Shown here in pieces: positions 25,211 to 54,841 of a DNA stretch of 64,000 bases. How positions within the stretch are numbered: the stretch's first letter is position 1; the number at the start of each line of letters is the position of its first letter. The notes under the pieces were generated by a model. That model made no database searches. It saw only the letters and a program-made list of their open reading frames with translations, and had not been told where the DNA came from. The stretch comes from Dyella subtropica (GTDB taxonomy: Bacteria; Pseudomonadota; Gammaproteobacteria; Xanthomonadales; Rhodanobacteraceae). The stretch lies in NCBI RefSeq assembly GCF_026283965.1, contig NZ_JAPDPD010000022.1:28403-92402 (forward strand), written 5' to 3'. The position numbers and the translations under genes were made by a program.

Positions 25211-26363
25211 ACCTTCTCCTTCTGTGGGGACAGGAGCCGGAAGCCGGAGGTCACGAATCGCGGGCACGCAAACGCCCTGGGCGCGGAGCCACTATGGGTT
25301 CCGCACCAGCCGTGTCCCTCTGTTCTCCGCGCCCCTGTTGGCTTGCTTACGCGCGCGATCGCCGACCGCGCGCGATGGTCATGTCGAGACAACGTCCCGG
25401 ATCAATCGCTCAGGCGAGTGGGGGAAACGGTTACACCCGCCGAGGCGCAGGTGGCGCATGCAGGAGCGGTGCGTAGCGAAGAAAGACCTCGAACGAAGGG
25501 GCGCGAACGTACTGCGATTCAATCAGCGGCATTGGGTATTCCCATGTCTTGTCCATCTCGATGGATACGTTCCTTTGCGTATGCCACTTCCCATCCTGGG
25601 AAGCTGCCCTCCCCTCCATCTGTTGCCGAGGCGCCCGGCCCATTCGCGAGGCCGGCAAGCGCCATCGCCGCGCCGGCCGGCGCGGCGGATGCGTGTAGTC
25701 GCTGTATGAACCGAAGGAACCAGCGGTCGCGTCGGGCGTGAGAGATGCACGGATGCGACACCGCCTGTATGCCGCGCGCTCCGCGGGCAAGTACGGTCTC
25801 GATATACCGGCATGCACGTCCCAGTTCCTTGTTGACGCGATGCCATAGGGGGTTGATCTGAGGAACTCGGCTCGCGTGAGGCAAACACCAACTCGCGACG
25901 ACAAGGCGTGAGCCCCGTGCCGGATACCTGAGTGTTCGACCCGTGATTCGCGGGAGCCTGCTCCCCATGCCCCCTGTGAGCACCTGTGGGTGAAACCATA
26001 CCGCCCTGGTTTCCTGGAACACCTCGCATCGTCGCTGCGGGCGTCATCCGGGCACTAAGGACTTGTATCGATCTTATGCAAGCCCGGCGCAAGCATGAAG
26101 TCGCACCACAAAAAAATGCGACGGCCATCACTGAATCTCCGTGCATGCGTCGCGTTATGACCCATGCGTTCGGTTCATGGTGATCGCCAGGTCACGGCAT
26201 TTGGCCCGGACTAGCTCGCATCACCCTGCTGTCTTATCTCAGATCCTCAAGCCGATAGCGGCATCGGCGCCACGTGACCTTGATCGGAGTTGAGCTGTGA
26301 TTGCGGCCAATCGCGTTTTGCCTTCTTTCTGAGAAGTGGCCGGGAAGATGGGGCCACGCCTAG
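25211..26363. other. Long gene-poor region upstream of the adhesin
   Basis: About 1.15 kb with overlapping open frames on both strands, none with a coherent protein signature or a good start. It should contain the adhesin promoter and a long 5' leader. No repeat family recognised elsewhere in the window is seen here. Confidence 0.5.
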
Positions 26364-40672: not shown

Positions 40673-42544
40673 ATGATAAAGCCAGCTGCAACGAAGCGGA
40701 ACCATCGTGCGATTTTCAAATTCCTGGGCGCCTCAGCGCTGGTGCTGGCACCCATGGGATTCGCCGGCGCAGAAACCGTGGTGCCATCGAATGCGCAACC
40801 GCTGTGCGCCGTATCCAACGCAACCTTCGCCAGTTGGTTCGTCAGCGGCAAGCCAAGCCTGAACGGCGCGGTCAATCCGGCCAACGGCATCACGTTTCCG
40901 CACCAGAACGACTGCAACTTCTACAACTGGGGTGCGCAGATGTTCCTCTGGCTCACCTCCCCAGCTTCAGGGCCGTATGGTTCGAGCGGTCTCGTGTTCA
41001 ACTCGCCGATTTTCTACAACGTCTCGGGCGTGATTAAGCAGGGCCCGGATAAGAACAAGCGGATCTACACGAAAAACCAACCGAACAATCCACTTTCCCA
41101 GTTGATCGTGCGCACTGCCGAGGCCGGTCAGCACGGCTTGCAGCTTGTCAGGGACAAGACGGGGCAGCTGTTCGAAGTGCTGCCCGCTTCGCAGGCCAAG
41201 AACGGCAACTCACTGATACGCAACGCAGCCAATAAAATGGTCGAGATCCATCGCATCGAAGCGCAGCCTGGCCAGAAGCCCAAGTTCTTCGACGCGGCAG
41301 ACAAGGAGATCGTTCGACCGAAAGCCCCCGCGCTCGACACCACACTGGCTTTGCGCGTCGCACCGGAACTGACGGAGGTTCCCCCGGAGGAAACGAAGAA
41401 CTTCGTGCAAGCGTTCGAAGCGGACGGCAAGGTGGTGTTCGTCGACAGCAACGGCAACACCATCGACCCGACCCAGGGCCAGGCCGGCGGCCTGTCGGGC
41501 GTGCTTCTGGCACAAAACAAGTCGCTGGTGTACTACGCCACGATGGTCAACGACGTCTACGCCTTTTTCCAGACCGGCACCCTCAACGGCACCTTCGGCA
41601 AATACAACAAGGACAGCAACTACTTCTTCCCCACCACGCAAGACCAGCTCAACCCGGTGATTAACTACGCTGCCTCGAAGAATTCACCCCTACCGGACCG
41701 TATTGCCTTGGCGGTCGAATTGAAGACCTCGTGGATCGATACCGCCGACCTGCCAAGGCTGGGGTTGAGGCCAAGCGACTTCATTACCGTCACGACTGCC
41801 GTACCCGTGTACAACCAGAGCAACCCTAAGCTGTGGATCCCCACCGGTCAGAAGAAGACGGTCACCCTGGCCATGGTGGGTATGCATGTGGTCGGTAGCG
41901 TCGCGGGGCATTCGGAAATGGTCTGGGCCACCTTCGAGCATATCGCCAATGCGCCGAGTTCCGGCTACCAGTACACCAACAACCAAGGCGGAACCTCCAC
42001 GGTGCCGCAAGGTAAGGCCGGCAGGTGGGTGTTCGCCTTGCCAACTGCGACTGCCTACAACGTGCAGATGGCGAACTACAAGAATGCCCCCAACATCCAG
42101 GGACAGACGACCGGCAGCACGACGACGACGATCTCGCCTAGCGACACCATGCTCATGAAGGCTTGGGGTACCGGCTCGGATGCGTCGAACTTTCTACTTG
42201 AAAATACCGAGGTCATTTCGGCCGATAGCAGTGTGCTCACCCAGCTCTTCAAGGGTGATGTACGGGCCAATTACGTCATGACCGGCGCGACCTGGACTCA
42301 GGGTGGGCAGGTGGTGCAGCCGACTTCCAGCCAACCTACGCTGCCTAGCAACCAGATCGGCACCAACCTGCTCAACAACACGACCATGGAAACTTACGAT
42401 CAGGGCGCCACCAGCCAAAGCAACACCGGTTTCAACTGCTTCAGCTGCCACGCCAACGGCTCGCAGTCGCCCGGGCAACCAGCCAATACCGGGGTGAGTC
42501 ATATTTTCAGCACGCTGATCCCGCTGTACCTGAAGTCGAACTAG
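40673..42544 (+). CDS. Large exported protein with one C-terminal heme c motif
   Basis: A 623-residue protein with a Sec signal peptide (IFKFLGASALVLAPMGFAGAE). I do not recognise the main domain. The N-terminal part has a Cys pair (Cys in AQPLCAVSN and HQNDCNFYNWG) and the middle holds the conserved-looking GMHVVGSVAGHSEMVWATFE, with possible metal-ligand histidines. A single CFSCH heme-attachment site (residues 589-593) is 31 residues from the C-terminus, in TGFNCFSCHANGS. It is probably a periplasmic redox protein. AGGAG precedes the ATG. A strong hairpin just after the stop separates it from the hyp operon, although the gap to hypF is only 68 bp. Confidence 0.75.
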   Translation: MIKPAATKRNHRAIFKFLGASALVLAPMGFAGAETVVPSNAQPLCAVSNATFASWFVSGKPSLNGAVNPANGITFPHQNDCNFYNWGAQMFLWLTSPASGPYGSSGLVFNSPIFYNVSGVIKQGPDKNKRIYTKNQPNNPLSQLIVRTAEAGQHGLQLVRDKTGQLFEVLPASQAKNGNSLIRNAANKMVEIHRIEAQPGQKPKFFDAADKEIVRPKAPALDTTLALRVAPELTEVPPEETKNFVQAFEADGKVVFVDSNGNTIDPTQGQAGGLSGVLLAQNKSLVYYATMVNDVYAFFQTGTLNGTFGKYNKDSNYFFPTTQDQLNPVINYAASKNSPLPDRIALAVELKTSWIDTADLPRLGLRPSDFITVTTAVPVYNQSNPKLWIPTGQKKTVTLAMVGMHVVGSVAGHSEMVWATFEHIANAPSSGYQYTNNQGGTSTVPQGKAGRWVFALPTATAYNVQMANYKNAPNIQGQTTGSTTTTISPSDTMLMKAWGTGSDASNFLLENTEVISADSSVLTQLFKGDVRANYVMTGATWTQGGQVVQPTSSQPTLPSNQIGTNLLNNTTMETYDQGATSQSNTGFNCFSCHANGSQSPGQPANTGVSHIFSTLIPLYLKSN

Positions 42545-42551
42545 CCACGTC

Positions 42552-42580
42552 GCCCTGCGGCGCCGCAGGCGCCGCAGGGC
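42552..42580 (+). terminator. Strong GC hairpin between the cytochrome-like gene and hypF
   Basis: GCCCTGCGGCGCC (42552-42564) and GGCGCCGCAGGGC (42568-42580) are perfect 13-bp arms around GCA. No T-run follows. hypF starts only 32 bp further on, so either partial read-through feeds the hyp operon or its promoter lies inside the upstream gene. Confidence 0.65.
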
Positions 42581-42612
42581 ATCGTCAACGGCAAACACGT
42601 CGGGATCGGCTC

Positions 42613-45060
42613 ATGTCGACAGTGTGGCAACACATCGAAGTGCGCGTTACGGGTACGGTGCAGGGCGTGGGGTTTCGCCCAACGGTGTATCGGCTGGCCC
42701 TCGCCTGCCGTCTTGATGGGGAAGTCCTTAACGACAGCGAGGGCGTACTGATCCGGCTGGCCGGCGCGCCGCACGATGTGCGCGACTTCCTGCACCGGCT
42801 GCCTGGCGAAGCCCCGCCGCTGGCCAAGATTGATTCGATTACCGCGACCGAGCGTGCGGACTTCCGCGAATACCGCGGCTTTCGCATCACCCATTCGCGC
42901 CATGCTGCCGGCCGGACCGAAGTGGCCGCTGATGCCGCGGTCTGCCAAGCCTGCCTCGATGAGATCAGTGATCCGCAGCAGCGGCGCTATCTCTATCCCT
43001 TTACCAATTGCACCCATTGCGGACCACGACTGTCCATCGTGCGCGGCATTCCCTACGACCGCGCGGCGACAACGATGGCAGCTTTCGCGATGTGCCCCGC
43101 GTGCGCTCACGAATACGCTGACCCCCTGGACCGCCGCTTCCATGCGCAACCGATCGCTTGCCACGCTTGCGGTCCGACCCTGACGCTGCACGAGCCTGGG
43201 GTGGACGAGCCTGGGGTGAACGAGCGTGGGGTGGACGAGCCTGGTGTGGACGGGCATGGAGTGGCGCGCCAGCTTGAGCATCTGTGCCATGGTCTTGCCG
43301 CAGGCAAGATCGTGGCTTTGAAGGGCCTGGGCGGGTTCCATCTGTGCTGCGATGCCACCAGTCATTCGGCCGTCACTACGCTACGCCGGCGCAAGGCGCG
43401 CGAAGCCAAGCCCTTCGCACTGATGGCTGCGGACTTGGCCGAAGTGCGCCGCTATTGCGACATCTCCCCGCTTGAAGAGCAGCTGTTGGGAAGCCCCGCC
43501 GCGCCCATTGTTCTACTCGAGATGCGCAACGAGCCGGCAGCCGGCAGTCCGACGCTGCCGGACGCCATTGCGCCGGGCAGTCGCCTGCTTGGGTTCATGC
43601 TGCCCTATACGCCGTTGCACTACCTGCTGTGCCGCCAGTTTGGCCGGCCGCTGGTCATGACCAGCGGCAATGCCTCCGGCGAACCGCAACTGATCGACAA
43701 CGCCGAAGCCTTGGAAAAATTGGGCGGCATCGCCGACCTGATCGCGACCCACAATCGCGACATCGCCAACCGCATGGACGATTCGGTGGTGCGTGTCGTC
43801 GCTGGCGAGCCTCGGCTTCTCCGGCGCGCGCGAGGCTATGCACCGCGCTCGATCACGCTGCCCGTGGGTTTCGAGCATGCCGACGGCATCCTCGCTTACG
43901 GCGCCGAGCTCAAGTCCACGTTCTGCCTGGTGAAACAGGGTGCAGCCATCCTGTCGCAACACCAAGGCGACCTGGAAGAGGTCAACACCTACGAAGACTA
44001 CGTGCACAATCTCAACCTGTATCGCCTGCTGTTCGATTTCACGCCGCGCCATCACGCCTACGACCTGCACCCCGAATACCTGAGCAGCAAGCTGGCCTGT
44101 CACGAGTCCCCTGTTCCCACCATTGCCGTACAGCATCATCACGCGCACATTGCCGGCGCCATGGCGGAAAACGGTTTGGCCAGAACGCATCGCCCGGTGC
44201 TGGGCATTGCTTTCGACGGGCTGGGCATGGGCGACGACGGCAGCCTGTGGGGCGGCGAATTCCTGTTGGCTGACTACGCGGGCTACCGCCGGCTGGCTTG
44301 CCTGAAGCCGGTAGCGATGCTTGGCGGCGGACAGGCGGTCCGGCAACCGTGGCGCAATACCCTGGCCCAGCTTCTGGCCTGCATGGAGTGGGAGGATTTC
44401 GCTGCACGCTACGGCGACACGGGCATTGGCCGGATGCTGCTGGCCAAACCCATCCCGACATTGCGAGCGATGTTGCGCGAGCGCGTGAACTGCCCATTGG
44501 CGAGTTCCGCCGGCCGCCTGTTCGATGCCGTGGCCGGCGCGCTCGGCCTGCACACCGAGCAGGCGCAGTTCGAAGGGCAAGCTGCCATCGCGCTGGAAAT
44601 GCTGGCCGATCGCGCCACGCTGCAGAACTGCCTTGCGGTCGGGATGGGCCCCCACCGCGAGGACTACCGACTGGACATCGTTCCCGATGCCGTGCCGCTC
44701 GTGCTCGATCCAGGCAGCATCTGGCCACGGCTTTGCGACGATCTGCTGCACGATGTGCCGCCCGCCGTTATCGCCGCACGCTTCCATGCAGGATTGATCC
44801 TTAGCATCGCCGACATGGCCGAGCAGTTGCGGCGCGAGCATGACTTCGGCGACGTAGTGCTCTCCGGCGGCTGCATGCAGAACGCACTGCTGCTCGAGGG
44901 TTTGATCGACACGCTCACAGCTCGCGGCCTGCGCTGCCTGACCCATACCCTCGTGCCGGCCAACGATGGCGGCATCGCCCTCGGACAAGCCGTGGTCGCC
45001 GCTGCGCGCATTGCCGGGCAGCCATCAACCACCGCATCGAGTCGCCATCTCCATGCGTAA
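42613..45060 (+). CDS. hypF: HypF carbamoyltransferase for hydrogenase-type cyanide ligands
   Basis: An 815-residue protein with the complete HypF order: acylphosphatase domain (residues 1-92, GTVQGVGFRPTVYRLAL), two zinc fingers (Cys 111/114/133/136 and 161/164/183/186), YrdC-like domain (KGLGGFHLCCDATSH, SGNASGEPQL), and Kae1-like domain with PTIAVQHHHAHIAGAMAENG and the C-terminal VVLSGGCMQNALLLEG. HypF forms the thiocarbamate on HypE that becomes the CN ligand of an Fe(CN)2CO group. It is the first gene of the nine-gene operon. A linker of five 15-bp repeats (residues 193-217, EPGVD type) after the zinc fingers is unusual for the family. Confidence 0.95.
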   Translation: MSTVWQHIEVRVTGTVQGVGFRPTVYRLALACRLDGEVLNDSEGVLIRLAGAPHDVRDFLHRLPGEAPPLAKIDSITATERADFREYRGFRITHSRHAAGRTEVAADAAVCQACLDEISDPQQRRYLYPFTNCTHCGPRLSIVRGIPYDRAATTMAAFAMCPACAHEYADPLDRRFHAQPIACHACGPTLTLHEPGVDEPGVNERGVDEPGVDGHGVARQLEHLCHGLAAGKIVALKGLGGFHLCCDATSHSAVTTLRRRKAREAKPFALMAADLAEVRRYCDISPLEEQLLGSPAAPIVLLEMRNEPAAGSPTLPDAIAPGSRLLGFMLPYTPLHYLLCRQFGRPLVMTSGNASGEPQLIDNAEALEKLGGIADLIATHNRDIANRMDDSVVRVVAGEPRLLRRARGYAPRSITLPVGFEHADGILAYGAELKSTFCLVKQGAAILSQHQGDLEEVNTYEDYVHNLNLYRLLFDFTPRHHAYDLHPEYLSSKLACHESPVPTIAVQHHHAHIAGAMAENGLARTHRPVLGIAFDGLGMGDDGSLWGGEFLLADYAGYRRLACLKPVAMLGGGQAVRQPWRNTLAQLLACMEWEDFAARYGDTGIGRMLLAKPIPTLRAMLRERVNCPLASSAGRLFDAVAGALGLHTEQAQFEGQAAIALEMLADRATLQNCLAVGMGPHREDYRLDIVPDAVPLVLDPGSIWPRLCDDLLHDVPPAVIAARFHAGLILSIADMAEQLRREHDFGDVVLSGGCMQNALLLEGLIDTLTARGLRCLTHTLVPANDGGIALGQAVVAAARIAGQPSTTASSRHLHA
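43189..43263 (+). repeat. Five 15-bp tandem repeats within hypF
   Basis: Units based on GACGAGCCTGGGGTG (43189-43203 to 43249-43263) encode HEPGV, DEPGV, NERGV, DEPGV, DGHGV. They lie between the zinc-finger domain and the YrdC-like domain and keep the frame. Confidence 0.9.
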
Positions 45061-45093
45061 CCCGAACATGCTTAACCAGAAAAGGAAAGGCAT

Positions 45094-45372
45094 ATGTGCC
45101 TAGGCATACCTGGAAAGATCGTCGCCATCAGCGATAGCGAGCAACTGCTCGGCATCGTCGACGTGGGCGGCATACAGCGCGCCGTGGATTTGAGCTGCGT
45201 CGCCCAAGGTTCCGAATCGCTTGAATCACTGATCGACCGCTGGGTGCTGGTCCACGTGGGCTTCGCCATGAGCGTGATTGACGAAGCCGAAGCGCAGGCC
45301 ACCCTCGCGGTCCTGACGGAACTGGGCCAAGTCCAGGAAGAGCTGGCCGCCATGCAGGAAGGCGAGTCATGA
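45094..45372 (+). CDS. hypC: HypC/HupF hydrogenase maturation chaperone
   Basis: A 92-residue protein starting MCLGIPGKIVAISDSEQLLG, the HypC signature in which Cys 2 (after Met removal) carries the iron during assembly. HypC bridges HypD and the target large subunit. AAAGGAAAGG precedes the start. The stop overlaps the next start (ATGA). Only one HypC paralogue is present. Confidence 0.95.
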   Translation: MCLGIPGKIVAISDSEQLLGIVDVGGIQRAVDLSCVAQGSESLESLIDRWVLVHVGFAMSVIDEAEAQATLAVLTELGQVQEELAAMQEGES

Positions 45373-46112
45373 GCAGCGGAGAAAACATCGAGCCACTGCA
45401 GGCGCTCTATCCGTTTCTAAACGCAAAGAAAACCGATAGCGCCACCATGGAGCAGGCCCTGCTGATTTCGGTGCAGCAAAAAATCGCCCAGCACCTGGAT
45501 GTCGTCGAGCGATTCTTTTCGACCCAAGGCGAGGCGGTGGTTGGGTGCGCCCGCACGGTTGCCGACGTTTATCGAAGACAGGGCCGGCTCTTCACCATGG
45601 GCAATGGCGGTTCGAGCTCGGATGCATCGCATATTGCGGTCGAGTTTCTGCATCCGGTGACCACCGGCCGCCCCGCCCTTCCTGCCTTCGACCTGAGCTG
45701 CGACAAGACCGTCATGAGCGCGATCGCCAACGACGTCGGTTACCAGCATGTTTTCGCGCGCCAGGTAGCGAGCCTGGTACGCAAGGAGGACGCGCTGATC
45801 GGCGTTTCGACCAGCGGCAATTCGGACAACCTGCTTCGTGCGTTTTCGCAGGCCCAGAAAATCGGCGCCAGCACCATCGGCCTATGCGGTGGCGACGGCG
45901 GCGAAATGGCCAAGGCCGGACTGGACCATTGCCTGGTGGTCGATTCGGACAGCATCCACCGCGTTCAAGAGTGCCACGTCGCCATCTACCACGTGCTGTG
46001 GGACCTGGTGCATACGCTGCTGGCCGATGAGCGCGGATTCTCGGGCAGCCAATTCTCGGGCAGCAAAACCTCGGGCAGCAAATCCCAGGAACCAACAGGG
46101 GCCAAGCCATGA
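45369..46112 (+). CDS. SIS-domain sugar-phosphate isomerase-like protein (GmhA-like) inside the hyp operon
   Basis: A 247-residue protein, longer than GmhA (about 195). The SIS domain (residues about 50-215) has TMGNGGSSSDASHIAVEFLH, VSTSGNSDNLLRAFSQAQKI and the C-terminal DSIHRVQECHVAIYHVLWDL. These match sedoheptulose-7-phosphate isomerases, including the phosphosugar loop GNGGSSSDA and the late VQExH motif. It sits between hypC and hypD with 4-bp overlaps on both sides, so it belongs to the same function. Heptose synthesis genes are absent nearby, so its substrate may be another phosphosugar. A 30-residue N-terminal extension and three 15-bp repeats (GFSGS QFSGS KTSGS) at the C-terminus flank the domain. 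Confidence 0.85.
   Translation: MSSGENIEPLQALYPFLNAKKTDSATMEQALLISVQQKIAQHLDVVERFFSTQGEAVVGCARTVADVYRRQGRLFTMGNGGSSSDASHIAVEFLHPVTTGRPALPAFDLSCDKTVMSAIANDVGYQHVFARQVASLVRKEDALIGVSTSGNSDNLLRAFSQAQKIGASTIGLCGGDGGEMAKAGLDHCLVVDSDSIHRVQECHVAIYHVLWDLVHTLLADERGFSGSQFSGSKTSGSKSQEPTGAKP
46035..46079 (+). repeat. Three 15-bp tandem repeats at the 3' end of the SIS gene
   Basis: GGATTCTCGGGCAGC, CAATTCTCGGGCAGC and AAAACCTCGGGCAGC encode GFSGS, QFSGS, KTSGS as a C-terminal tail. Confidence 0.9.
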
Positions 46113-47293
46113 AATATGTGGATGAATACCGCGATCCGGCGCAGGCAGCAAAGCTGATCAAGGAAATCACACGGCTCGCGGATAAGCTTGCCGAACAACG
46201 CGGCCGCGCGGTTTACGTGATGGAAGTGTGCGGCGGCCACACCCATTCGATCTTCCGCTACGGCATCGAGAACATGCTGCCGCCGAGCGTGGAGCTGATC
46301 CACGGGCCGGGTTGCCCGGTATGCGTGCTTCCCATAGGGCGGGTCGACGATTGCGTGGCGATCGCCGAACACGAGAACGCCATCATGACAACCTTCGGCG
46401 ACGCCATGCGCGTCCCGGGTTCGAAGCGCAGCCTGCTGCAAGCGAAGTCGCTTGGCGCTGATGTGCGCATGGTCTATTCACCGCTCGACACACTCAAGAT
46501 CGCGCGCAGCAATCCCGACAAGGAAGTGGTGTTCTTCGGACTCGGTTTCGAAACCACCATGCCCAGCACTGCATTGACCGTGCTCAAGGCCGAGGCCGCA
46601 GGAATCGGCAATTTCTCGCTCTTTTGCAACCACATCACCATCATTCCGACCATCAAGGCCGTGCTCGACTCGGAAGGCTTCCAGGTCGACGGTTTTCTCG
46701 GTCCCGGCCATGTCAGCATGGTTATCGGCACCCGTCCTTATGACTTCATCGCCGAGCACTACCGGCGCCCCGTCGTGATAGCAGGCTTCGAGCCGCTGGA
46801 CATACTGCAATCGCTGTGGATGGTATTGAAGCAACTCGATGCGCAGGACGCGCGCATCGAGAACCAGTACAGCCGCGTCGTCCCGGAGGATGGCAACCCC
46901 GCTGCGCTGCAGGCGATCAACCGCGTCTTCGAGCTGCGCCCGTTCTTCGAATGGCGCGGCCTTGGTTCGATCGACCATTCCGGCGTCCAGCTCACCGCGC
47001 GCTATGCCTCCTACGACGCGGAACGGAAATTCGCCGTGCCCGCCGTGGCCATCGCGGAGCCCAAATCCTGCCAATGCGGCGAAGTGCTCAAAGGCGTGAT
47101 CAAGCCCTGGCAGTGCAAGGTCTACGGCAAGGCTTGCACGCCCCAGACACCGATGGGTGCGCTGATGGTGTCAAGCGAAGGCGCGTGCGCCGCTTATTAC
47201 CAGTATGGCGGTGGTCCGCGCCAGATCGTAAACGAACAGATCGTCGACGATCAGCCGGTAGGAGAACAGCCGATAGGAGAGCAGGCCGCATGA
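46109..47293 (+). CDS. hypD: HypD iron-sulfur scaffold for Fe(CN)2CO assembly
   Basis: A 394-residue HypD with its signatures intact: EVCGGHTHSIFRYGIE (Cys 41), the redox pair GPGCPVC (Cys 69 and 72), FFGLGFETTMP, FLGPGHVSMVIG, and the C-terminal [4Fe-4S] cysteines (within CQCGEVLKGVIKPWQC, KACTP and GACAAYYQY, residues about 321-360). HypD and HypC together attach CN and CO to iron. It overlaps the SIS gene before it and hypE after it by ATGA junctions. The extra tail after the iron-sulfur region is four 15-bp repeats (IVNEQ IVDDQ PVGEQ PIGEQ). Confidence 0.96.
   Translation: MKYVDEYRDPAQAAKLIKEITRLADKLAEQRGRAVYVMEVCGGHTHSIFRYGIENMLPPSVELIHGPGCPVCVLPIGRVDDCVAIAEHENAIMTTFGDAMRVPGSKRSLLQAKSLGADVRMVYSPLDTLKIARSNPDKEVVFFGLGFETTMPSTALTVLKAEAAGIGNFSLFCNHITIIPTIKAVLDSEGFQVDGFLGPGHVSMVIGTRPYDFIAEHYRRPVVIAGFEPLDILQSLWMVLKQLDAQDARIENQYSRVVPEDGNPAALQAINRVFELRPFFEWRGLGSIDHSGVQLTARYASYDAERKFAVPAVAIAEPKSCQCGEVLKGVIKPWQCKVYGKACTPQTPMGALMVSSEGACAAYYQYGGGPRQIVNEQIVDDQPVGEQPIGEQAA
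47225..47284 (+). repeat. Four 15-bp tandem repeats at the 3' end of hypD
   Basis: ATCGTAAACGAACAG, ATCGTCGACGATCAG, CCGGTAGGAGAACAG and CCGATAGGAGAGCAG encode four degenerate pentapeptides ending in Gln. Confidence 0.85.
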
Positions 47294-48396
47294 ACGCTAC
47301 GCAGGAAAAGACTTCGGCCGGATTGACCGGTGGCGCCTCGGAAGATACCCGCATCCGGCGCAGCAAGCTGGCCAGCCCGCTCATCACACTGGCGCATGGC
47401 GGCGGCGGCAAAGCGATGCGCGAGTTGATCGATGACGTCTTTATCAACGCCTTCAGCAACCCGACGCTCAACACCTTGGAGGACCAGGCGCGCGTTCCAC
47501 TGGCCGAATTGGCACGCCTCGGCGATCGCCTGGCCATGACCACCGACTCCTACGTCGTCGACCCGATCTTTTTCCCCGGCGGCGACATCGGCAAACTGGC
47601 CGTCTGCGGCACCGTGAATGACTTGGCTGTAGGCGGTGCCACACCGCTGTACCTGACCTGTGCCGTCATCATCGAGGAAGGCATGCAGGTCGAAACGCTG
47701 CGTCGCATTGTCACCTCCATGGCCGAGACAGCCAGGGCTGCCGGCGTCAGCATCGTCACCGGCGACACCAAGATCGTCGGGCGCGGCAGCTGCGACAAAA
47801 TATTCATCAACACGGCCGGGATCGGCGTGATTCGCCAGGACTATCGGCTCGGTGCAAACCAAGCACGCCCTGGCGATCGCATCCTGGTCAACGGCTATCT
47901 GGGCGATCACGGCGCCACCATACTGAATGCGCGCGGCGACATGCACCTGACCAGTCCGATCCAGAGCGACTGCGCCGCGTTGCACGGCCTGATTTCCGTG
48001 CTGCTTGAAGCTGCTCCGGGGACACGCTTCATCCGCGACGCCACGCGCGGCGGCATTGCGTCGGTCTTGAACGAAATCGCCGAAGCCTCGGCGTGCGGCA
48101 TCGAAATCGCCGAGGCCGCCACGCCGATCCACCAGGAGGTCAAGGGATTCTGCGAGATCCTCGGCCTCGACCCGCTCTACCTGGCCAACGAAGGCAAGCT
48201 GGTCGCCGTAGTACCGGAAGCCGAAGCCGCCGCGGCGCTGCAAGCCATGCGCGCGCACCCGTTGGGCCGGGACGCGGCCGACATCGGTGCGGTGCTCGCC
48301 GACGGCCGTGCCGGCCGCGTTCACATGCAGACCGTCTTCGGCGGCAGGCGCATCGTCGACATGCTGATCGGCGAACAACTGCCTCGCATTTGTTGA
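47290..48396 (+). CDS. hypE: HypE carbamoyl dehydratase
   Basis: A 368-residue protein of the PurM/HypE fold: ITLAHGGGGKAMRELIDDVF, LAMTTDSYVVDPIFFPGGDI, VCGTVNDLAVGGATPLYLTC, and the obligatory C-terminal PRIC whose Cys carries the thiocarbamate/thiocyanate. The start at 47290 overlaps hypD (ATGA); the frame open further upstream is only a shadow of hypD. The complete C-terminus and the ATP-binding GGGGK mean the cyanide-forming step should work. A duplicated 15-bp block straddles the stop codon. Confidence 0.96.
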   Translation: MNATQEKTSAGLTGGASEDTRIRRSKLASPLITLAHGGGGKAMRELIDDVFINAFSNPTLNTLEDQARVPLAELARLGDRLAMTTDSYVVDPIFFPGGDIGKLAVCGTVNDLAVGGATPLYLTCAVIIEEGMQVETLRRIVTSMAETARAAGVSIVTGDTKIVGRGSCDKIFINTAGIGVIRQDYRLGANQARPGDRILVNGYLGDHGATILNARGDMHLTSPIQSDCAALHGLISVLLEAAPGTRFIRDATRGGIASVLNEIAEASACGIEIAEAATPIHQEVKGFCEILGLDPLYLANEGKLVAVVPEAEAAAALQAMRAHPLGRDAADIGAVLADGRAGRVHMQTVFGGRRIVDMLIGEQLPRIC

Positions 48397-48414
48397 GCAC
48401 GCATTTGTTGAACG
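48385..48414 (+). repeat. 15-bp tandem duplication across the hypE stop codon
   Basis: CGCATTTGTTGAGCA (48385-48399) is followed directly by CGCATTTGTTGAACG. The first copy encodes the end of HypE (RIC, stop); the second is non-coding. Confidence 0.85.
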
Positions 48415-48443
48415 CGCCCTCTCAATCTCCGCAAGGGTTCCCT

Positions 48444-49055
48444 ATGCACACATTCTCATCCAAGCAGCACCTCCCGGCCGAAGGCCTGCTGACCCGCATC
48501 GTCGACCACGACGAGGTGTTGACGCTGGACTACCAGGAAGCGACGCGCCGTCATCAACGCTCGCTCTGGTGGGGCACGGCTGTCGGCTATCGCGCCATGC
48601 AAGTCGCCGCCGTCGCGCTTTCCGGAGATAGCCTGTGGCGGCGCGACAACCTGGTCGTCGTCAGCGGCCATCCCGGACCCGGCGTGCTCGACTCATTGAA
48701 CTATGTCACGCTTTGCGCCGACCGCGGCACGCTGACCGTGCTGCAGAACGACCATTGCGTCAATCGCTGCAATAGCGAGATGAAATTCGAGTGGTGGGTC
48801 AGCGACGGCGACAGGACCGCTCATATCATGCTCGACGAGGATTTCGTTCCGCGCGAATTCTATGAGTTGATCGATCGCCGCGTGTACAGCGAAACCCGCG
48901 ACGACGACGACAAGCTGTTCGAGCTGTACAAAGTGAACCTGTCCTCGCGGATCTGGGTTGCGCCGTTGGAGCAAAGCTTCTCGTTCGAGCTGCTGCCGCC
49001 GATGGCGCGAGGCGAATTGCCTGCTGGCCATGCCTGGGTCAAGGAATCCGCATGA
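48444..49055 (+). CDS. FmdE-like protein in the hyp operon
   Basis: A 203-residue soluble protein. The segment RRHQRSLWWGTAVGYRAMQV fits the N-terminal FHGHxxxGxxxGxR block of the FmdE family (named after formylmethanofuran dehydrogenase subunit E), although the metal-binding His/Cys pattern there is changed (RHQRSLWWG). Cys 91, 105 and 109 (LCADRG, DHCVNRC) are alternative ligand candidates. The C-terminal half (KLFELYKVNLSSRIWV) is not recognised. It starts 47 bp after hypE and overlaps the next gene by ATGA. A role in handling the metal or cofactor of the orphan hydrogenase-like protein is inferred only from position. Confidence 0.6.
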   Translation: MHTFSSKQHLPAEGLLTRIVDHDEVLTLDYQEATRRHQRSLWWGTAVGYRAMQVAAVALSGDSLWRRDNLVVVSGHPGPGVLDSLNYVTLCADRGTLTVLQNDHCVNRCNSEMKFEWWVSDGDRTAHIMLDEDFVPREFYELIDRRVYSETRDDDDKLFELYKVNLSSRIWVAPLEQSFSFELLPPMARGELPAGHAWVKESA

Positions 49056-49948
49056 CCGGAATGCCATCCCCGGCTGCAGCGGAACTACCGGAGGACAGCA
49101 TTCCAGCGAGGACCCTGGCGCTGGCGAGCGTGGCCGAGCCGCCGCGTGATTACGACAGCGACCTGTTCCGGCGTTATCCCGGCATGAAGCTCGGACGCAT
49201 GTCCGACGTCGACTTTTTCGCCGAGCTATTGAGCAACCTGACTGCGGAAGTGCTCGCGGAAGGCGAGACGGCCGATGCCTGGGTGCTGACCGCACCGGCT
49301 TATTACCAGCTTCCCTCGGCGGCCAACCTGCTGGCGGAGCGCATGCATGCCATGCTGCGCCATCGAGGCATCGCATTGCCGCTCGTGGAATTGCGACTGT
49401 CGCCCGAACAGCTCGCCGTGCACAGCCTTGAGGAGTTTCGGCTCTCCTGCGATTACAGCCGCCAACCGCTGGCGCAGCGTGTTACCGAGCGCCAGCGCCT
49501 GCAGGACACTGCACCGCCCGACCCAGGCTGGCAGCGTTTCGCCAAGCGCAACGTCATCGTCGTCAACGATATCCACGTTACCGGCACGCAGCAGCGCTTC
49601 ATGCAAAGCTCACTGGCGGCGGCCGGCGCAAACGAGTGTCATTGGCTATATATCTTTCACGTCGAGGGTGAATTGGCGCGCACCTGTCCGGAGATCGAGC
49701 ACCGCATCAATACCAGTAACTTGGCCGATCTCGATAGCTATGCAGCCCTGCTGTCCGACCCCGCGACACGCCACACGGCGCGTTGCCTGTCGCGCCTTTT
49801 CAGTGAGGAGCCCGACGCATTCCGCTATCTGGTCGCCACGCTACAGCCGGAAGCGCACGCACGGATCTACCGCCTGGCGAAGGACGAGGGGCGGTATGAC
49901 ACTCCCTTGTTCGGCGAAAAAATGCGGCTATTGGGCGCTGGTGACTAG
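49052..49948 (+). CDS. Phosphoribosyltransferase-like protein
   Basis: A 298-residue protein with a PRTase type I fold signature: RNVIVVNDIHVTGTQQ corresponds to the PRPP-binding VVDDVxxTGxT loop, although the first acidic residue is Asn (VND instead of VDD). An N-terminal extension of about 45 residues precedes YPGMKLGRMSDVDFFAELLS, and APAYYQLPSAANLLAERMHA fits the early PRTase helix. No base-recognition motif is identified. Its gene overlaps the FmdE-like gene (ATGA) and lies 14 bp ahead of the VanX-like gene. What it ribosylates, if anything, is unknown. Confidence 0.65.
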   Translation: MTGMPSPAAAELPEDSIPARTLALASVAEPPRDYDSDLFRRYPGMKLGRMSDVDFFAELLSNLTAEVLAEGETADAWVLTAPAYYQLPSAANLLAERMHAMLRHRGIALPLVELRLSPEQLAVHSLEEFRLSCDYSRQPLAQRVTERQRLQDTAPPDPGWQRFAKRNVIVVNDIHVTGTQQRFMQSSLAAAGANECHWLYIFHVEGELARTCPEIEHRINTSNLADLDSYAALLSDPATRHTARCLSRLFSEEPDAFRYLVATLQPEAHARIYRLAKDEGRYDTPLFGEKMRLLGAGD

Positions 49949-49962
49949 AGGAAAATCCGATC

Positions 49963-50808
49963 ATGTACGGCATCGATTACCGTATCCCCCAAGTCGACCT
50001 GGCGGAAATCCGCAAGCCGCATTACCAGATTCCGCTTGACCACACTTCCCTGCTGTTTGCCGAGGAAATGGTCGACGTGCGCGACTACGGCCTCAGCTTC
50101 CTCTCCTGGCATGCCATCGACGACGGCAGCAATGCGCCTTATGGCAGGCCGATCGCGGGCAGCCGGACCGACGGCTGGCTGCGCAGGACGTTCGCCGAGA
50201 AGCTCGCGCGCGCCGACCGATTGCTTGCCGCTTACGATGCGCAATTGCTGATCCTCGACGCCTACCGCCCGATCGAATGCCAGCACGGCCTGTGGCGGTT
50301 CTTTTGGGAACTTGGGCGCCAGGCAAACCCCGCAGCGAGCGACGAAGAGTTGCGCCAATATGCATCGCGCTACCTGCGCGACCCACGCAGCTTTGATCGC
50401 AACGACGCGCGCACCTTTCCCATTCACAGCACCGGGGCATCCATCGACGTCGTGCTGCGTAGCCGCTCGCAGGGGCATTGGCTCGATATGGGTTCGCGCT
50501 TCGACGAATACACCGAGGCCAGCGTCACCGATTATTTCGAACGCCAGCTGCTGCTGGGTGCGATCAGCCAGGACGACCACCGGCTGTGGAACCGGCGCCT
50601 GCTGCACTGGGCGCTGTCGAGCGAAGACATTACCAACGACCCGCTGCTGTACTGGCACCACGACTGGGGCAACCAGATCTGGATCAAGGTCAAGCGGGCG
50701 GTCTACGGCGACGCCATGGAGACGGCATGGTACGGCTACATCGATGCCCCTCCCCTCCCCCGGCCCTGCTCTTGGTCTGCATGCTCTCGGACTGACGGAG
50801 TAAGTTGA
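49963..50808 (+). CDS. VanX-like (peptidase M15D) protein lacking the catalytic glutamate
   Basis: A 281-residue relative of D-Ala-D-Ala dipeptidases. Present are the transition-state arginine in LILDAYRPIE, zinc ligands His and Asp in FPIHSTGASIDVVL (HxxGxxxD), DMGSRFDEYTE, and the third zinc ligand His in LLYWHHDWGNQIW. In VanX the corresponding stretch is ExWWH with a catalytic Glu three residues before the His; here that position is Leu (L-Y-W-H). The zinc site is therefore kept while the catalytic base is lost. No signal peptide. It may be a non-peptidase zinc protein or a folding/processing partner of the hydrogenase-like protein encoded 2 bp downstream. The C-terminal 20 residues look like a random tail. 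Confidence 0.75.
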   Translation: MYGIDYRIPQVDLAEIRKPHYQIPLDHTSLLFAEEMVDVRDYGLSFLSWHAIDDGSNAPYGRPIAGSRTDGWLRRTFAEKLARADRLLAAYDAQLLILDAYRPIECQHGLWRFFWELGRQANPAASDEELRQYASRYLRDPRSFDRNDARTFPIHSTGASIDVVLRSRSQGHWLDMGSRFDEYTEASVTDYFERQLLLGAISQDDHRLWNRRLLHWALSSEDITNDPLLYWHHDWGNQIWIKVKRAVYGDAMETAWYGYIDAPPLPRPCSWSACSRTDGVS

Positions 50809-50810
50809 TC

Positions 50811-52643
50811 ATGAGCCTTCAGACGCGCGCGGAAGCGGATGCGGAGCGCCGGGACGCCGCCGGTGAATTGAGCGCCGCGATGATGCGCGAGATGCGTGCA
50901 CGCAATCGCGCGAACCTGGCCGCGTCGGCGGCGCAGACCGACCCGCTGGCTCGACTCGAAGGTAGCCTGGCTGTGCATTGCCGAGTCGATCTTGAGAGCC
51001 GCACGGTGGTGGAAAGTGCGTCGATGGCCAGCTTGTTCAAGGGGTACGAGGCACTGCTGCCAGGACGCGACTTGAGCAAGGTCGGCCTGATCAGCGCGAC
51101 CGCCTCCGGCATTTGCGGCGGCGTGCACGCCACCGCCTCTGCGCTGTGTCTGGAAATGGCGCTTGGCCTGGCGCCACCGCCCTTGGGCATCGTCTTGCGC
51201 AACCTGCTTTTGAGCTGTCAGTACCTCAACGACAGCTGCCTGCATCTGTTCGTGTTGGCCGGACCGGACTATTCGCGACTGGCGTTCGAAAGGACCAATC
51301 CGGAAATCTGGAACCGTGCGATAAAGGCACCGTGCCGTCGCTCGCAGCAGCACGGCTACACCCGCGTCGGCGATCTCATGGCCGCGCTCGATAAAGGCAC
51401 CGGCGCCTTGTACAAGGAAGCGTTGCAGATGGCTGCACGCGCACGCCAGGCCTACACGCTACTGGGTGGCAAATACCCACATTCGGAGTCCATCGTTCCT
51501 GGCGGGGTAGCCCTGCCCGCCGACGCGGCCAAGCTGGCCGAATTCAGCGCTGTATTGCGGCCGTTTGCTGCCTATAGCCAAAAGGCCGCCGCCGTCTGGG
51601 ACGACGTGTTCGACTTCCTGCTGGAAGCCGAGCCGCGCTATGCCGAACTCGGGCGAGCGCCCGCCTCGATGCTCGACTTTGGCCAATGGGATCATCCGGA
51701 TCACTACGACGGCAGCTATGCACGCTGCGACAGCTGGGGCGCGCAGCGCTGGTCCACGCCAGGTGCGTTGATCGACGGTCAGCTGGCCTGCACGGCGTTG
51801 AGCCTGCTCAATGCCGGCATGGAAGAGCATCTCGACCACTCCTATCAGCAGCGCGCCGCGCTACCGCACGCCATGCTCAGCACCGACCCCAAAGGCAACC
51901 CCATCTCGCACCTGCACCCATGGAACAAAAGGACCGAACCAGCCAGGGCGCACAATCCGCGTGCCTATAGCTGGGGTTCGAGCCTCACCTGGCGCGGCCA
52001 CAATTTCGAGGTCGGGGCCTATGCACGGCTTTACCTGAGCGCAGCGGCGCGAGCATTGCCGCCCGGCAAGCACGTGGCGGCCGACGGTGCCGGACTTGAT
52101 TTCAGCTTGCCGGATGAACATGGCGGTGAAATCACCTTGCGCTGGAACATCCCTTCGCTATGGAACGCATTCGAACGCAACCGCGCCCGTGCGTATTCCC
52201 TCGCGTTCAATGTCGGAGTCACGCGTGAGAATATCGCGCTGGCCGAGGCAGCCATGGCCTCCGGCGAAACCAGAACGCGCGTATCGCTCGACAACGTGCC
52301 GACGGGACAGCGACTCGGCGTCGGCTTGTGGGGGGCCAGTCGTGGCTTCCTGGCGCACTGGGCCGTGCTGGATGAACAGGTGATCGACAACTACCAGATT
52401 GCCATCCCTTCACGCATCAATGTCGGAACACGCATGCCCGATCGTACGCCGGGGCCGCTCGAGCAAGCCTTGGCCAACACGCGCATCGTTGAAAGCCGCT
52501 ACAACGGTCCGGATGATTTCGTCGGCATCGATATCCAGCGCGTCGTTCAAAGCTTCGATCCATGCATGGATTGCACGGTTCATATCCTGATCGGCGATGA
52601 TGCCACTGTGCTGGAACGAACCGTCGATACGCGCGTTCGTTAA
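50811..52643 (+). CDS. Orphan [NiFe]-hydrogenase large-subunit-like protein with an incomplete cysteine set
   Basis: A 610-residue protein. The N-terminal half follows the hydrogenase large-subunit pattern: VHCRVDLESRTVVESASMAS, LFKGYEALLPGRDLSKVGLI, TASGICGGVHATASALCLEM and VLRNLLLSCQYLNDSCLHLF. The C-terminus has VGIDIQRVVQSFDPCMDCTV and His 591, the usual DPCxxCxxH that binds the metals (Cys 585, 588). The N-terminal motif RxCGxC is altered to GICGGV: Cys 102 is kept but the second, bridging-position cysteine is Val, and the Arg before it is missing. Nineteen residues follow His 591; whether they are cleaved is unknown. It is the last gene of the hyp operon and no small subunit is present in the window. 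ATG 50811 is preferred over a TTG 6 bp upstream. Confidence 0.82.
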   Translation: MSLQTRAEADAERRDAAGELSAAMMREMRARNRANLAASAAQTDPLARLEGSLAVHCRVDLESRTVVESASMASLFKGYEALLPGRDLSKVGLISATASGICGGVHATASALCLEMALGLAPPPLGIVLRNLLLSCQYLNDSCLHLFVLAGPDYSRLAFERTNPEIWNRAIKAPCRRSQQHGYTRVGDLMAALDKGTGALYKEALQMAARARQAYTLLGGKYPHSESIVPGGVALPADAAKLAEFSAVLRPFAAYSQKAAAVWDDVFDFLLEAEPRYAELGRAPASMLDFGQWDHPDHYDGSYARCDSWGAQRWSTPGALIDGQLACTALSLLNAGMEEHLDHSYQQRAALPHAMLSTDPKGNPISHLHPWNKRTEPARAHNPRAYSWGSSLTWRGHNFEVGAYARLYLSAAARALPPGKHVAADGAGLDFSLPDEHGGEITLRWNIPSLWNAFERNRARAYSLAFNVGVTRENIALAEAAMASGETRTRVSLDNVPTGQRLGVGLWGASRGFLAHWAVLDEQVIDNYQIAIPSRINVGTRMPDRTPGPLEQALANTRIVESRYNGPDDFVGIDIQRVVQSFDPCMDCTVHILIGDDATVLERTVDTRVR

Positions 52644-53044
52644 GGATGCTCTGATCCATGCTGCGCAGGCGGCATGATGTCCGGACAGCCCGCAAGGCGC
52701 GTTGCGTGGCGGGAAATGTGGTCGGGCTCACTTATCCCGCACGGAAAGCGAACCTGACCCCGATTTCGCCTTGATGTTGGGATATCGCGACCTGGCCGCT
52801 TATGCAGCGGGCATTCCGGACGCCTGCCGGCGCCCGGGTCACTTTCTCTTTGCTGACCCAAAGAGAAAGTAACCAAAGAGAAATGGTCTGAAAGCGTGGT
52901 GCGCTTCGTCGCCACACATCTTCCAGTGTCAGACCTCGGAAGCATGGTGTTAGCGAGAGACTCGTGTCGGGAAACAGGGCCGGGTTCACTTATCACGCAC
53001 AGAAAGCGAACCTGACCCCGACACGCCTACCCCCGATTTCACCA
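52644..53044. repeat. Intergenic region with a one-ended copy of repeat A and two small repeats
   Basis: 52770-52945 matches one end of repeat A (GATATCGCGACCTGGCCGCT, then the TCACTTTCTCTTTGCTGACC hairpin and CTTCCAGTGTCAGACCTCGG). Two copies of a short sequence, each reading CACTTATC-CGCAC-GAAAGCGAACCTGACCCC in spaced form, lie at about 52727-52762 and 52981-53022; a third is at 28198. The hairpins may end the hyp operon transcript. No gene is seen. Confidence 0.7.
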
Positions 53045-54841
53045 TCAGTGCTGATACGCCCCCTGATCAATCAATCCGCTCGTCGTTGTACGAGCCGCTC
53101 CCGCGTAGTCGTATGCCCCTTCCACCACCAACCCAAGATTCAGCCCCTGGAGGATGCCTGGCGACCCTGCGGCGAGCCTCAGATTCAGCGCGGCCGCGTT
53201 GACAAAGAGAGGATCGGCGAGCACCCCATGGGTCTCGCTGCCGCTCGCCTGCTGGAACGTGCTGAGGGTGATGTAGGTGGAGCCGTTCCAGATCCACGAC
53301 GCGCCGGAAGAGCCAGCACTGGAGAAGTACAGATTGTTCTGCAGGGTGGCCGGTGGCGTGCTGTAGGTATAGGGGCTGCTTACAAGCAGGCCCTGATCGT
53401 TGGCGTAGAGGATGTTGTTTGCGACGAGATTGCTGCTGGCGTTGTACTGGATCTGGAGTTCGCCGCTACCGGAGGAGTTGGTGTCATTTTCGTACAGGGT
53501 GTTGTTGACGATGTTGCAGTGGGTGGTGCCGCCGACGCTGGCTGCGTAGCCGCCGATGGACATACCGACGACGTTACTGTTGAAGACGATGTTGTTGCGG
53601 GCGGTGATGTAGCTGGTGGTGCGGCCGTAGTGTTCGCTGGCGAGTTCAATACCAAGGTCCGCGGCCTGCACGGTGTTCTGTTCGATGGTGATCTGAGTGC
53701 CGCCGTCCACGTAGATGCCGTCGGCGCTGGGCTGGTAGTTGTAGGCGGGATTGGTGCTGGAGGTGATGTTGTAGACGTTGTTGTTGGCGATCCAGCCGTT
53801 GCGGGCCTGGTCCAGGCTGGTCGAGGGCGCAGTGCCTTCGAAGCCGATGGCGACGATACCGATGTTGTTGTTGTCGTGGACTTCGTTGTTGGTGACTTGC
53901 CAGTTCTGCACGTTGCCGTTGACGGAGAGGGATTCGCTGTAGCCGAGGGTGAGGCTGTCGAGCGTGTTGCCGTCAATGATGAGCTGGCTGATCGGCGTGA
54001 TGGCCGTGCCGTAAACAGCCAGGCCGAAGGCATCGCCATCGGAGGTCGTGATGGTGGTAGCGATATGGTGAATGTGGTTGTTGCGGATCTCGATGTGATC
54101 ACCCGTGCCTTGGACATAGATGCCCGCGGGCGTCTGGCTGATCGAGTTGGATGTGTAGTTGCGTAGCTCCAGGCCGATCACGCGTACATAGCTGACGTTG
54201 CTCAGGTTGAGAAGTCCCTGCGTGCCAGATGCGATGCCCAGCCCGGTGCCGTCGATGATGGCAGTCTGACCCGGCGCGGACATCAGCGTGATGAAGCCGG
54301 CCGTGGCAGAACCGGATTGGGTCATGGTCACGAGCTTGTTGTAAGTGCCCCCTGCCACCTGCACGGTCGCACCGGCAGGCACGTGATCCACCGCCCATTG
54401 GATGCTGGCCCACGGGTTCGCGGCGCTGCCGTCGTTACCGTCGTTGCCATTGGTCGCCACGTAATAGGTCGGCCCGATGTAGGTGGCTGCTGCCACGGCG
54501 GCGGAGGCTGCGCCCGTTGAGGTCGGCGATGCCACCGAGGCAGCGCTGATGGTGGCTGTGAAGTTGGAGGAGGCACCGGCCGGCGCCGTATAGACACCCG
54601 TCGGGGAGATGGTGCCAAGGCTCGGCGCGCCGCCCGGCACGCCATTCACCAGCCACGTGACGTTTGAGTTACTGCTGCCGGATACGTTAGCGACGAACTG
54701 TTGCGTGCCATTGGCTGGCAGCGACACCTGCGCGGGTGACACCGAGATGCCAACGTCCGCGGCCGCGGGCCGCGCGCCAAGCAGAGCGGACGAGATCACG
54801 GCGGCGATAGCCGCCATGCGGAACATGGGGAGCGTTTTCAT
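53045..54841 (-). CDS. Secreted beta-helix protein with N-terminal Ig-like domain
   Basis: A 598-residue protein with the same signal peptide type as the protein at 33193-34704 (MKTLPMFRMAAIAAVISSAL). After it comes an Ig-like domain (residues about 30-115, VSPAQVSLPANGTQQFVANV, VTWLVNGVPGG). A right-handed parallel beta-helix follows (ASIQWAVDHVPAGATVQVAG, GDHIEIRNNHIHHIATTITT, IANNNVYNITSS, ITARNNIVFNSNVVGM). ATYIGPTYYVATNGNDGNDG marks the helix start, as in polysaccharide-lyase and right-handed helix proteins. It is likely secreted and glycan-related; no catalytic residues assigned. AGGAAGAGGAAAGT precedes the ATG. Confidence 0.82.
   Translation of the reverse strand: MKTLPMFRMAAIAAVISSALLGARPAAADVGISVSPAQVSLPANGTQQFVANVSGSSNSNVTWLVNGVPGGAPSLGTISPTGVYTAPAGASSNFTATISAASVASPTSTGAASAAVAAATYIGPTYYVATNGNDGNDGSAANPWASIQWAVDHVPAGATVQVAGGTYNKLVTMTQSGSATAGFITLMSAPGQTAIIDGTGLGIASGTQGLLNLSNVSYVRVIGLELRNYTSNSISQTPAGIYVQGTGDHIEIRNNHIHHIATTITTSDGDAFGLAVYGTAITPISQLIIDGNTLDSLTLGYSESLSVNGNVQNWQVTNNEVHDNNNIGIVAIGFEGTAPSTSLDQARNGWIANNNVYNITSSTNPAYNYQPSADGIYVDGGTQITIEQNTVQAADLGIELASEHYGRTTSYITARNNIVFNSNVVGMSIGGYAASVGGTTHCNIVNNTLYENDTNSSGSGELQIQYNASSNLVANNILYANDQGLLVSSPYTYSTPPATLQNNLYFSSAGSSGASWIWNGSTYITLSTFQQASGSETHGVLADPLFVNAAALNLRLAAGSPGILQGLNLGLVVEGAYDYAGAARTTTSGLIDQGAYQH

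Follow-up and report, generated by a model that had tools for sequence, protein, structure and literature searches.

What is the machinery for assembling Fe(CN)2CO used for in a gene cluster in which the only apparent recipient is a hydrogenase large-subunit-like protein (hereafter, HLP) that lacks a canonical nickel ligand? The question is raised by a 64,000-nucleotide stretch of the Dyella subtropica genome (hereafter, the window), where a plus-strand cluster encodes the complete HypC, HypD, HypE and HypF maturation set for Fe(CN)2CO together with HLP and several accessory proteins. To our knowledge, Fe(CN)2CO has been described in no proteins other than hydrogenases and those that assemble them. 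A sequence-only reading of the window had proposed that the cluster is a dedicated assembly line loading such a group on a non-standard protein; the comparisons described here support a dedicated line. We further predict, with a confidence that we put at about even, that the cluster makes a nickel-free Fe(CN)2CO protein and puts it to use, and that HLP is a single-subunit enzyme.

The departure of HLP from hydrogenases is most apparent in the metal-binding motifs L1 and L2. In established hydrogenase structures, the first L1 cysteine is a terminal nickel ligand, whereas the second cysteines of L1 and L2 (L1-Cys2 and L2-Cys2) are bridging. The sequence RICGICGDNH that forms L1 in the group 1h hydrogenases aligns without gaps with TASGICGGVH in HLP, so that HLP has neither the first L1 cysteine nor its arginine but keeps the bridging second cysteine; in this respect, the description of HLP as non-standard is borne out. 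In a set of 121 HLPs, consisting of the query and the best 120 of 1556 protein matches, position 101 is occupied by Ser in 114 sequences, Ala in 5 and Cys in 2 (residue numbers are counted from the TTG codon at 50805; 2 is to be subtracted if translation starts at the ATG). By comparison, C104, C587, the canopy arginine R513 and D585 are present in all 121 sequences and D143 in 120, and the only universal cysteines are accordingly L1-Cys2 (C104) and the first cysteine of L2 (C587). The bridging L2-Cys2 (C590) is found in 104 of the 121 sequences; in the remaining 17, Thr, Ser or Ala stands in its place. A three-residue deletion in L1 that would have spared the first cysteine was considered and rejected, given that the alignments to HofG, to the group 1h proteins and to HoxV are all gap-free; the retained residue is L1-Cys2. 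The loss of the N-terminal proton-transfer glutamate was dropped as an argument against H2 chemistry because three aligned 1h proteins have Val at this position.

Two HLPs, P0109 and P0120, retain all four cysteines and the L1 arginine. In a 22-row tree that includes 14 of the 121 HLPs and carries a long-branch warning between group 1h and the outgroup, the 12 sampled HLPs without Cys101 form a group with 100/100 support, and both four-cysteine proteins fall outside it. The same placement is seen in a 135-row FastTree that includes all 121 HLPs and was re-rooted by script, so that support labels near its root may be shifted. The basal position of the four-cysteine proteins suggests a stepwise order of events, from a hydrogenase to an HLP ancestor with the full ligand set, followed by the loss of L1-Cys1 and then by repeated loss of L2-Cys2; P0109 and P0120 are possible intermediates between hydrogenases and HLPs.

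The hydrogenases to which HLP is closest are those of group 1h, the actinobacterial-type hydrogenases (AH, or Hhy) represented by HofKG of Cupriavidus necator plasmid pHG1. The best match of HLP among solved structures is HofG (5aa5), the C. necator AH large subunit, with an E-value of 7e-92 over residues 43-593. HLP is 33-35% identical over about 570 amino acids to four 1h large subunits, compared with 25-26% to the large subunits of the membrane-bound hydrogenase (MBH) and the regulatory hydrogenase (RH) encoded on the same plasmid. In a 32-row tree, HLP and group 1h lie on one side of a branch with 100/100 support, and the 18 HLPs sampled out of 121 form a single group. Group 1h, the nearest neighbour of HLP in the trees, shares with it the canopy Arg and Asp, the L2 motif and the gene order hypF-hypC-SIS-hypD-hypE. 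In most HLPs, unlike in the 1h proteins, neither the first L1 cysteine nor its Arg is present, and the two kinds of loci differ in gene content in both directions. All four 1h loci encode a small subunit, HypA, HypB, a protease, a NifU-like protein, DUF5947, DUF6084 and an NHL protein, none of which is found in the 13 HLP-locus stretches, whereas the FmdE-like, PRTase-like, M15-like and haem-c genes of the HLP loci are missing from all four 1h loci.

The maturation genes tell a complementary story. The order of the AH locus on pHG1, hypF-hypC-SIS-hypD-hypE-hypA-hypB, is that of the window plus the two nickel genes, and the SIS protein of the window is 63% identical to the SIS protein encoded in the same position on pHG1. 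HypD is 70-73% identical to the copies from the AH locus and the 1h locus of M. parvus, compared with 49% for the MBH-locus copy; for HypD, HypE and the SIS protein taken together, identity to the AH and M. parvus 1h copies is 56-73%, versus 49-52% for HypD and HypE of the MBH locus. The high similarity of HypD to its counterparts from proteobacterial 1h loci, set against 48-51% for HypD and HypE from an actinobacterial one, points to an origin of the maturation genes within the proteobacterial 1h branch. The maturation genes thus appear to have changed little while their target, HLP, changed a great deal.

The observation of the sequence-only reading that the window contains no small subunit, no hypA or hypB and no endopeptidase holds and extends genome-wide at the sensitivity of the searches; as the finding that would speak against it, that reading had named the presence of these genes elsewhere in the genome, co-conserved with the locus and accompanied by H2 uptake or evolution dependent on HLP, and the genes were not found (HypB not above its cut-off) in any of the eight genomes that carry the HLP locus. 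Specifically, with Pfam and NCBIfam searches that produced matches for HypA, HypB and HycI in control genomes, HypA and the HycI protease were each detected in 0 of these 8 genomes. HypB above the cut-off was likewise detected in none of the 8, weak matches appearing in genome G790 only (best score 84 bits, cut-off 121), where they perhaps represent a urease-type GTPase. HofK, the 1h small subunit, was found in none of the 8 in a search that was run without a positive control. In tblastn searches with positive controls, HofK, HypA, HypB and the AH protease were present in all four 1h loci and absent from the 13 HLP-locus stretches of the eight genomes; the small subunits of MBH and RH were not found in these stretches either. 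An ordinary [NiFe] hydrogenase locus, with its small subunit and nickel genes located elsewhere or diverged beyond recognition, would be compatible with the genome-wide HofK search, which had no control of its own, but hardly with the success of the other searches in control genomes, with the tblastn contrast between 1h and HLP loci, or with the 99-100% completeness of the seven locus genomes for which a figure is available; we consider it highly improbable. By sequence criteria, HLP lies outside the [NiFe]-hydrogenases on four features, namely the ligands, the small subunit at the locus, HypA/HypB and the protease.

The same searches bear on the possibility that HLP binds nickel without HypA and HypB, as a one-subunit [NiFe] enzyme or an H2 sensor. 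Three cysteines, along with the canopy Arg and Asp, are retained in most of the 121 sequences, and the two basal HLPs have four, which would suit such a role. Set against this are the loss of the first L1 cysteine in 119 of the 121 sequences and of L2-Cys2 in 17, the failure to find a small subunit, and the failure to find a protease, although cleavage of the C-terminal tail is described as dependent on nickel in the site (PMC12134894). We judge nickel binding by HLP to be decidedly unlikely.

The maturation pathway, by contrast with the nickel pathway, seems to be both complete and devoted to HLP. In all eight genomes, HypD is encoded by a single gene that lies within the HLP cluster, and HLP is the only member of the large-subunit family (PF00374) above the Pfam cut-off, save for a truncated HLP copy in G000; nor did these genomes reveal any further client for the hyp genes. 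Sub-threshold large-subunit matches, two in all, occur in G050 and G055 and possibly represent subunits of complex I. These counts agree with the dedicated assembly line of the sequence-only reading, with HLP as its sole intact large-subunit homologue. A full-length match to HypX was found in only one of the eight genomes (G007), with short matches in the others. HypX is required for the CO ligand under oxic conditions (PMC12134894), and therefore, if HLP is matured in air, the other genomes would need another source of CO.

The truncated copy belongs to the D. subtropica genome itself (C13:100357-101115, equivalent to L030:15358-16116), which comprises 4.95 Mb in 46 contigs at 99.96% completeness and has the window in contig C14. 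It is lacking its 5' part, is 759 bp long and 98.4% identical to window positions 51891-52648, and spans residues 362-612, with L2 present and L1 absent and an unrelated stretch upstream; it is flanked by genes that, judged by eye, resemble those for an ABC transporter and a hydrolase, near a polyketide synthase. We read it as a recent duplication or a chimera.

A precedent for a large-subunit relative that carries Fe(CN)2CO and no nickel is HoxV, a maturation scaffold of C. necator, which is reported to have Fe(CN)2CO but neither nickel nor enzyme activity (PMC12134894). This precedent lends credence to a nickel-free Fe(CN)2CO site in HLP. The HoxV motifs RLFALCGEAH, MARG and YDPCVPY keep L1-Cys2, the canopy Arg, the L2 Asp and L2-Cys1, and have lost L1-Cys1 and L2-Cys2; two near-identical HupK-like proteins from Mesorhizobium loci, found through HoxV, show the same pattern. 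The residues retained in these three sequences are the core that is universal among the 121 HLPs. In the main rival to the enzymatic reading, HLP would itself be a protein of the HoxV/HupK kind that carries or stores Fe(CN)2CO for a client other than a hydrogenase, perhaps the FmdE-like protein, in which Cys105, Cys109, His37 and His76 are invariant in 32 sequences. HoxV, however, has 383 amino acids and works for a hydrogenase present in its own cell, whereas HLP, with 610 amino acids, has the full length of a large subunit with the pocket residues invariant, groups with the 1h large subunits, and is the only large-subunit homologue over the cut-off in 8 of 8 genomes, leaving no hydrogenase as a client. 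Furthermore, the similarity between HLP and HoxV is short and local (29.9% identity over 87 amino acids, E=2e-4). Because of the differences in length and affiliation, this limited similarity and the lack of a detected client hydrogenase, the resemblance of the ligand patterns is probably convergent. Taken together, we favour an enzymatic role for HLP over that of a carrier, which we regard as unlikely.

HLP is sparsely distributed. Among 61 genomes (that of D. subtropica and its relatives), 10 contain HLP matches, of which 5, including D. subtropica, show at least 52% identity over most of the protein, and the remaining matches are partial, with 23-42% identity; no HLP was found in 5 other genomes of the same genus. 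At E<=1e-60, HLP is present in 7 of 398 genomes of the order and, in a sample of 398 genomes from the phylum, in the D. subtropica genome only. The closest named relatives at the HLP locus are Dyella species, and the protein-database matches listed include Undibacterium, Methyloprofundus, Thalassomonas, Arenicella, Endozoicomonas, Kordiimonas and Rhizomicrobium. The synteny that the sequence-only reading had suggested searching for does exist and embraces a tenth gene directly upstream of its nine: the ten-gene block recurs in all eight genomes examined, with order and strand rearranged in G050 and G055, and the FmdE-like, PRTase-like and M15-like genes accompany HLP in 8 of 8. Given this recurrence, the gene order is not a matter of chance.

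Patchy occurrence, a lost ligand and a lost electron-transfer partner are what one would expect if HLP were a decayed hydrogenase remnant, or a structural subunit comparable to NuoD of complex I, and the hyp genes were relics. This explanation we reject on conservation and hold to be scarcely probable: the gene is free of internal stop codons in 8 of 8 genomes, C104, C587, R513 and D585 are present in every one of 121 sequences, whose identities go as low as 50%, HypC, HypD, HypE and HypF keep their key residues, and the same new genes accompany HLP in every one of the eight genomes.

Additional genes occur in the rearranged loci. In G055 (L028:1544-7564), these encode a multicopper oxidase, a BNR/YCF48-like protein, an ATP-grasp-like protein and two GT2 glycosyltransferases, and in G050 (L035:2278-7382), counterparts of the ATP-grasp-like, GT2 and oxidase genes were recognized by eye. 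The ATP-grasp-like gene followed by two GT2 genes shows the same order in both genomes, which represent two other families of the order; the two ATP-grasp-like proteins, of which that of G055 was named by eye and has no Pfam match, are 48% identical. This gene was not found in the other 6 HLP genomes. For this reason, a secondary-metabolite cluster was set aside as an explanation, and these additional genes were left out of the core.

The coordinates of the cluster are listed in Table 1. The nine open reading frames of the sequence-only reading are intact and follow one another on the plus strand in the order given there. From hypF through the HLP gene, the gene-to-gene gaps are 33, -4, -4, -4, 47, -4, 14 and 2 bp, in accord with its count of six out of eight junctions within 14 bp. 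Its count of five overlaps has to be corrected: in three Dyella homologue loci, the HLP gene starts with ATG after an AAGGA-type site, so the start is most likely the ATG at 50811 (610 amino acids), and there are therefore four overlaps, the fifth being produced only by a start at TTG 50805. The signature cysteines noted earlier are in place, that is, the N-terminal MC of HypC, CGGHTH and GPGCPVC of HypD, the C-terminal PRIC of HypE and the zinc-finger cysteines of HypF, and all four proteins exceed the NCBIfam cut-offs. Assignment of the last gene to the large-subunit family and the M15/VanX-like label are both backed by Pfam matches, and the FmdE-like label is borne out by the fold. The PRTase-like label stands only in weak form, with a score below the cut-off. 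A sigma-70 promoter scan of positions 42400-53050 yielded 2 sites, with 2.0 expected.

Table 1. Genes of the HLP cluster and motifs of HLP, with positions in the window
Feature	Position	Strand	Evidence or remark
Tenth member, predicted secreted haem-c protein, 623 aa	40673..42544	+	signal peptide by eye; one C-terminal motif CFSCH
hypF, carbamoyltransferase	42613..45060	+	TIGR00143 737.8 bits, cut-off 466.1
hypC, Fe(CN)2CO chaperone, N-terminal Met-Cys kept	45094..45372	+	TIGR00074 77.9 bits, cut-off 48
SIS-domain (GmhA-like) gene between hypC and hypD	45369..46112	+	SIS_2 6.4e-19
hypD	46109..47293	+	TIGR00075 501.9 bits, cut-off 192.8
hypE, ends in PRIC	47290..48396	+	TIGR02124 451.5 bits, cut-off 251.6
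FmdE-like protein, 203 aa	48444..49055	+	fold
PRTase-like protein	49052..49948	+	PRTase_3 6.6e-5, 22.8 bits, under 28.7 cut-off; VNDIHVTGTQQ motif
M15/VanX-like protein, 281 aa	49963..50808	+	Peptidase_M15 8.1e-13
HLP, hydrogenase large-subunit-like protein, 610 aa	50811..52643	+	NiFeSe_Hases 4.1e-55; HofG 5aa5 7e-92; trees
Altered L1 motif of HLP, TASGICGGVH; Ser101 replaces first Cys, Cys104 kept	51099..51128	+	
L2 motif of HLP, FDPCMDCTVH: Asp585, Cys587, Cys590; C-terminal tail beyond	52554..52583	+	

Two other features of the window were recorded. A trimeric autotransporter adhesin of 2422 amino acids, with a YadA head, stalk repeats and an ESPR signal, is encoded at positions 17999-25267 on the minus strand. 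At positions 9256-11871, also on the minus strand and about 30 kb from the cluster, there is a gene for an outer-membrane beta-barrel porin of the MtrB/PioB type, the kind used in extracellular electron transfer.

The accessory proteins offer some leads to the chemistry. The FmdE-like protein has the FmdE fold (2glz, 2gvi, 3d00); a formylmethanofuran dehydrogenase core was not noticed among the cluster genes, although no search was aimed at one. A sequence-profile search for solved relatives of the FmdE-like and haem-c proteins gave no significant match. The profile of the M15/VanX-like protein matches VanX (1r44) at 2.5e-7 with the HxxxxxxD motif aligned, the profile alignment ending before the late His; this His is kept in 8 of 8 loci, without the Glu three residues before it. 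With the residue roles of VanX applied here, HxxxxxxD and the late His are presumably metal ligands and the missing Glu catalytic, and the protein is possibly a metal-binding pseudo-peptidase with putative zinc ligands. The haem-c protein, with its C-terminal CxxCH, shows a weak fold resemblance to cytochrome P460, and kinship with the latter is only a lead. The haem-c family extends beyond the HLP cluster, with 528 matches including Dyella acidiphila, Methylomonas and Bryobacteraceae; two listed members have type IX secretion tails, and no convincing Pfam match was found in the 50 members scanned.

How might such a cluster work? In hydrogenase maturation, carbamoyl phosphate is the source of the cyanide that HypF and HypE produce, and Fe(CN)2CO is put together by HypC and HypD and passed to the large subunit. 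In the cluster described here, HypF and HypE would likewise provide the cyanide ligands, and the task of building Fe(CN)2CO and delivering it to HLP would fall to HypC and HypD; HLP would hold it through Cys104, Cys587 and, usually, Cys590. Transfer of Fe(CN)2CO from loaded HypCD to an apo large subunit, HoxC, has been achieved in vitro (PMC11565642). HLP would then take no nickel, keep its C-terminal tail, work as a single subunit and carry out a reaction other than hydrogen chemistry, and the vacated nickel position beside the iron, under Arg513, Asp585 and Asp143, would most likely bind a small substrate. More speculatively, the FmdE-like protein might perform one-carbon (formyl or CO) chemistry, either by providing the CO ligand or in the role of a partner, and the PRTase-like, M15-like and exported haem proteins might make, bind or finish the product.

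Several observations weigh against this scheme. The full ligand set is kept in 2 of the 121 HLPs, and most of the listed HLPs have three of the four cysteines, so that a weak or different nickel site is possible; moreover, high nickel can bypass HypA and HypB in the laboratory (PMC12134894). HoxV shares the ligand pattern of HLP, yet is reported to be inactive, a combination that speaks for a carrier no less than for an enzyme. The one-carbon idea derives from the FmdE-like fold, and the ATP-grasp-like and glycosyltransferase genes of two lineages do not obviously agree with it. Finally, HypD and HypE from the 1h locus of the actinobacterium S. fungicidicus are no closer to those of the window than the MBH copies are (HypD 51%).

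In the literature surveyed (titles and the beginnings of abstracts, among the matches listed, with preprints and most subscription papers outside the scope), neither a cluster of this kind nor a nickel-free Fe(CN)2CO enzyme was encountered. A precedent for a nickel-free iron-CO enzyme would be the [Fe]-hydrogenase Hmd, whose mononuclear iron is bound by CO and a thiolate, but this protein is unrelated to HLP and employs a different cofactor, iron-guanylylpyridinol, which involves no Hyp proteins. With more reserve than for the enzymatic role as such, and rating the proposal somewhat below an even chance, we suggest that HLPs are the first enzymes to use Fe(CN)2CO without nickel or hydrogen, a one-subunit class that would have evolved from hydrogenases of the atmospheric-H2 type as the nickel site, the electron relay and the nickel loaders were lost step by step and an FmdE-like one-carbon protein was recruited in their place. 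The presence of the FmdE-like protein in 8 of 8 genomes, against full-length HypX in 1 of 8, would offer a new place to seek the source of the CO ligand. If the enzymatic role is confirmed, HLP would be a natural nickel-free model of the hydrogenase site, and Fe(CN)2CO would have a second life beyond hydrogenases, for which a costly cyanide and CO assembly line has been retained.

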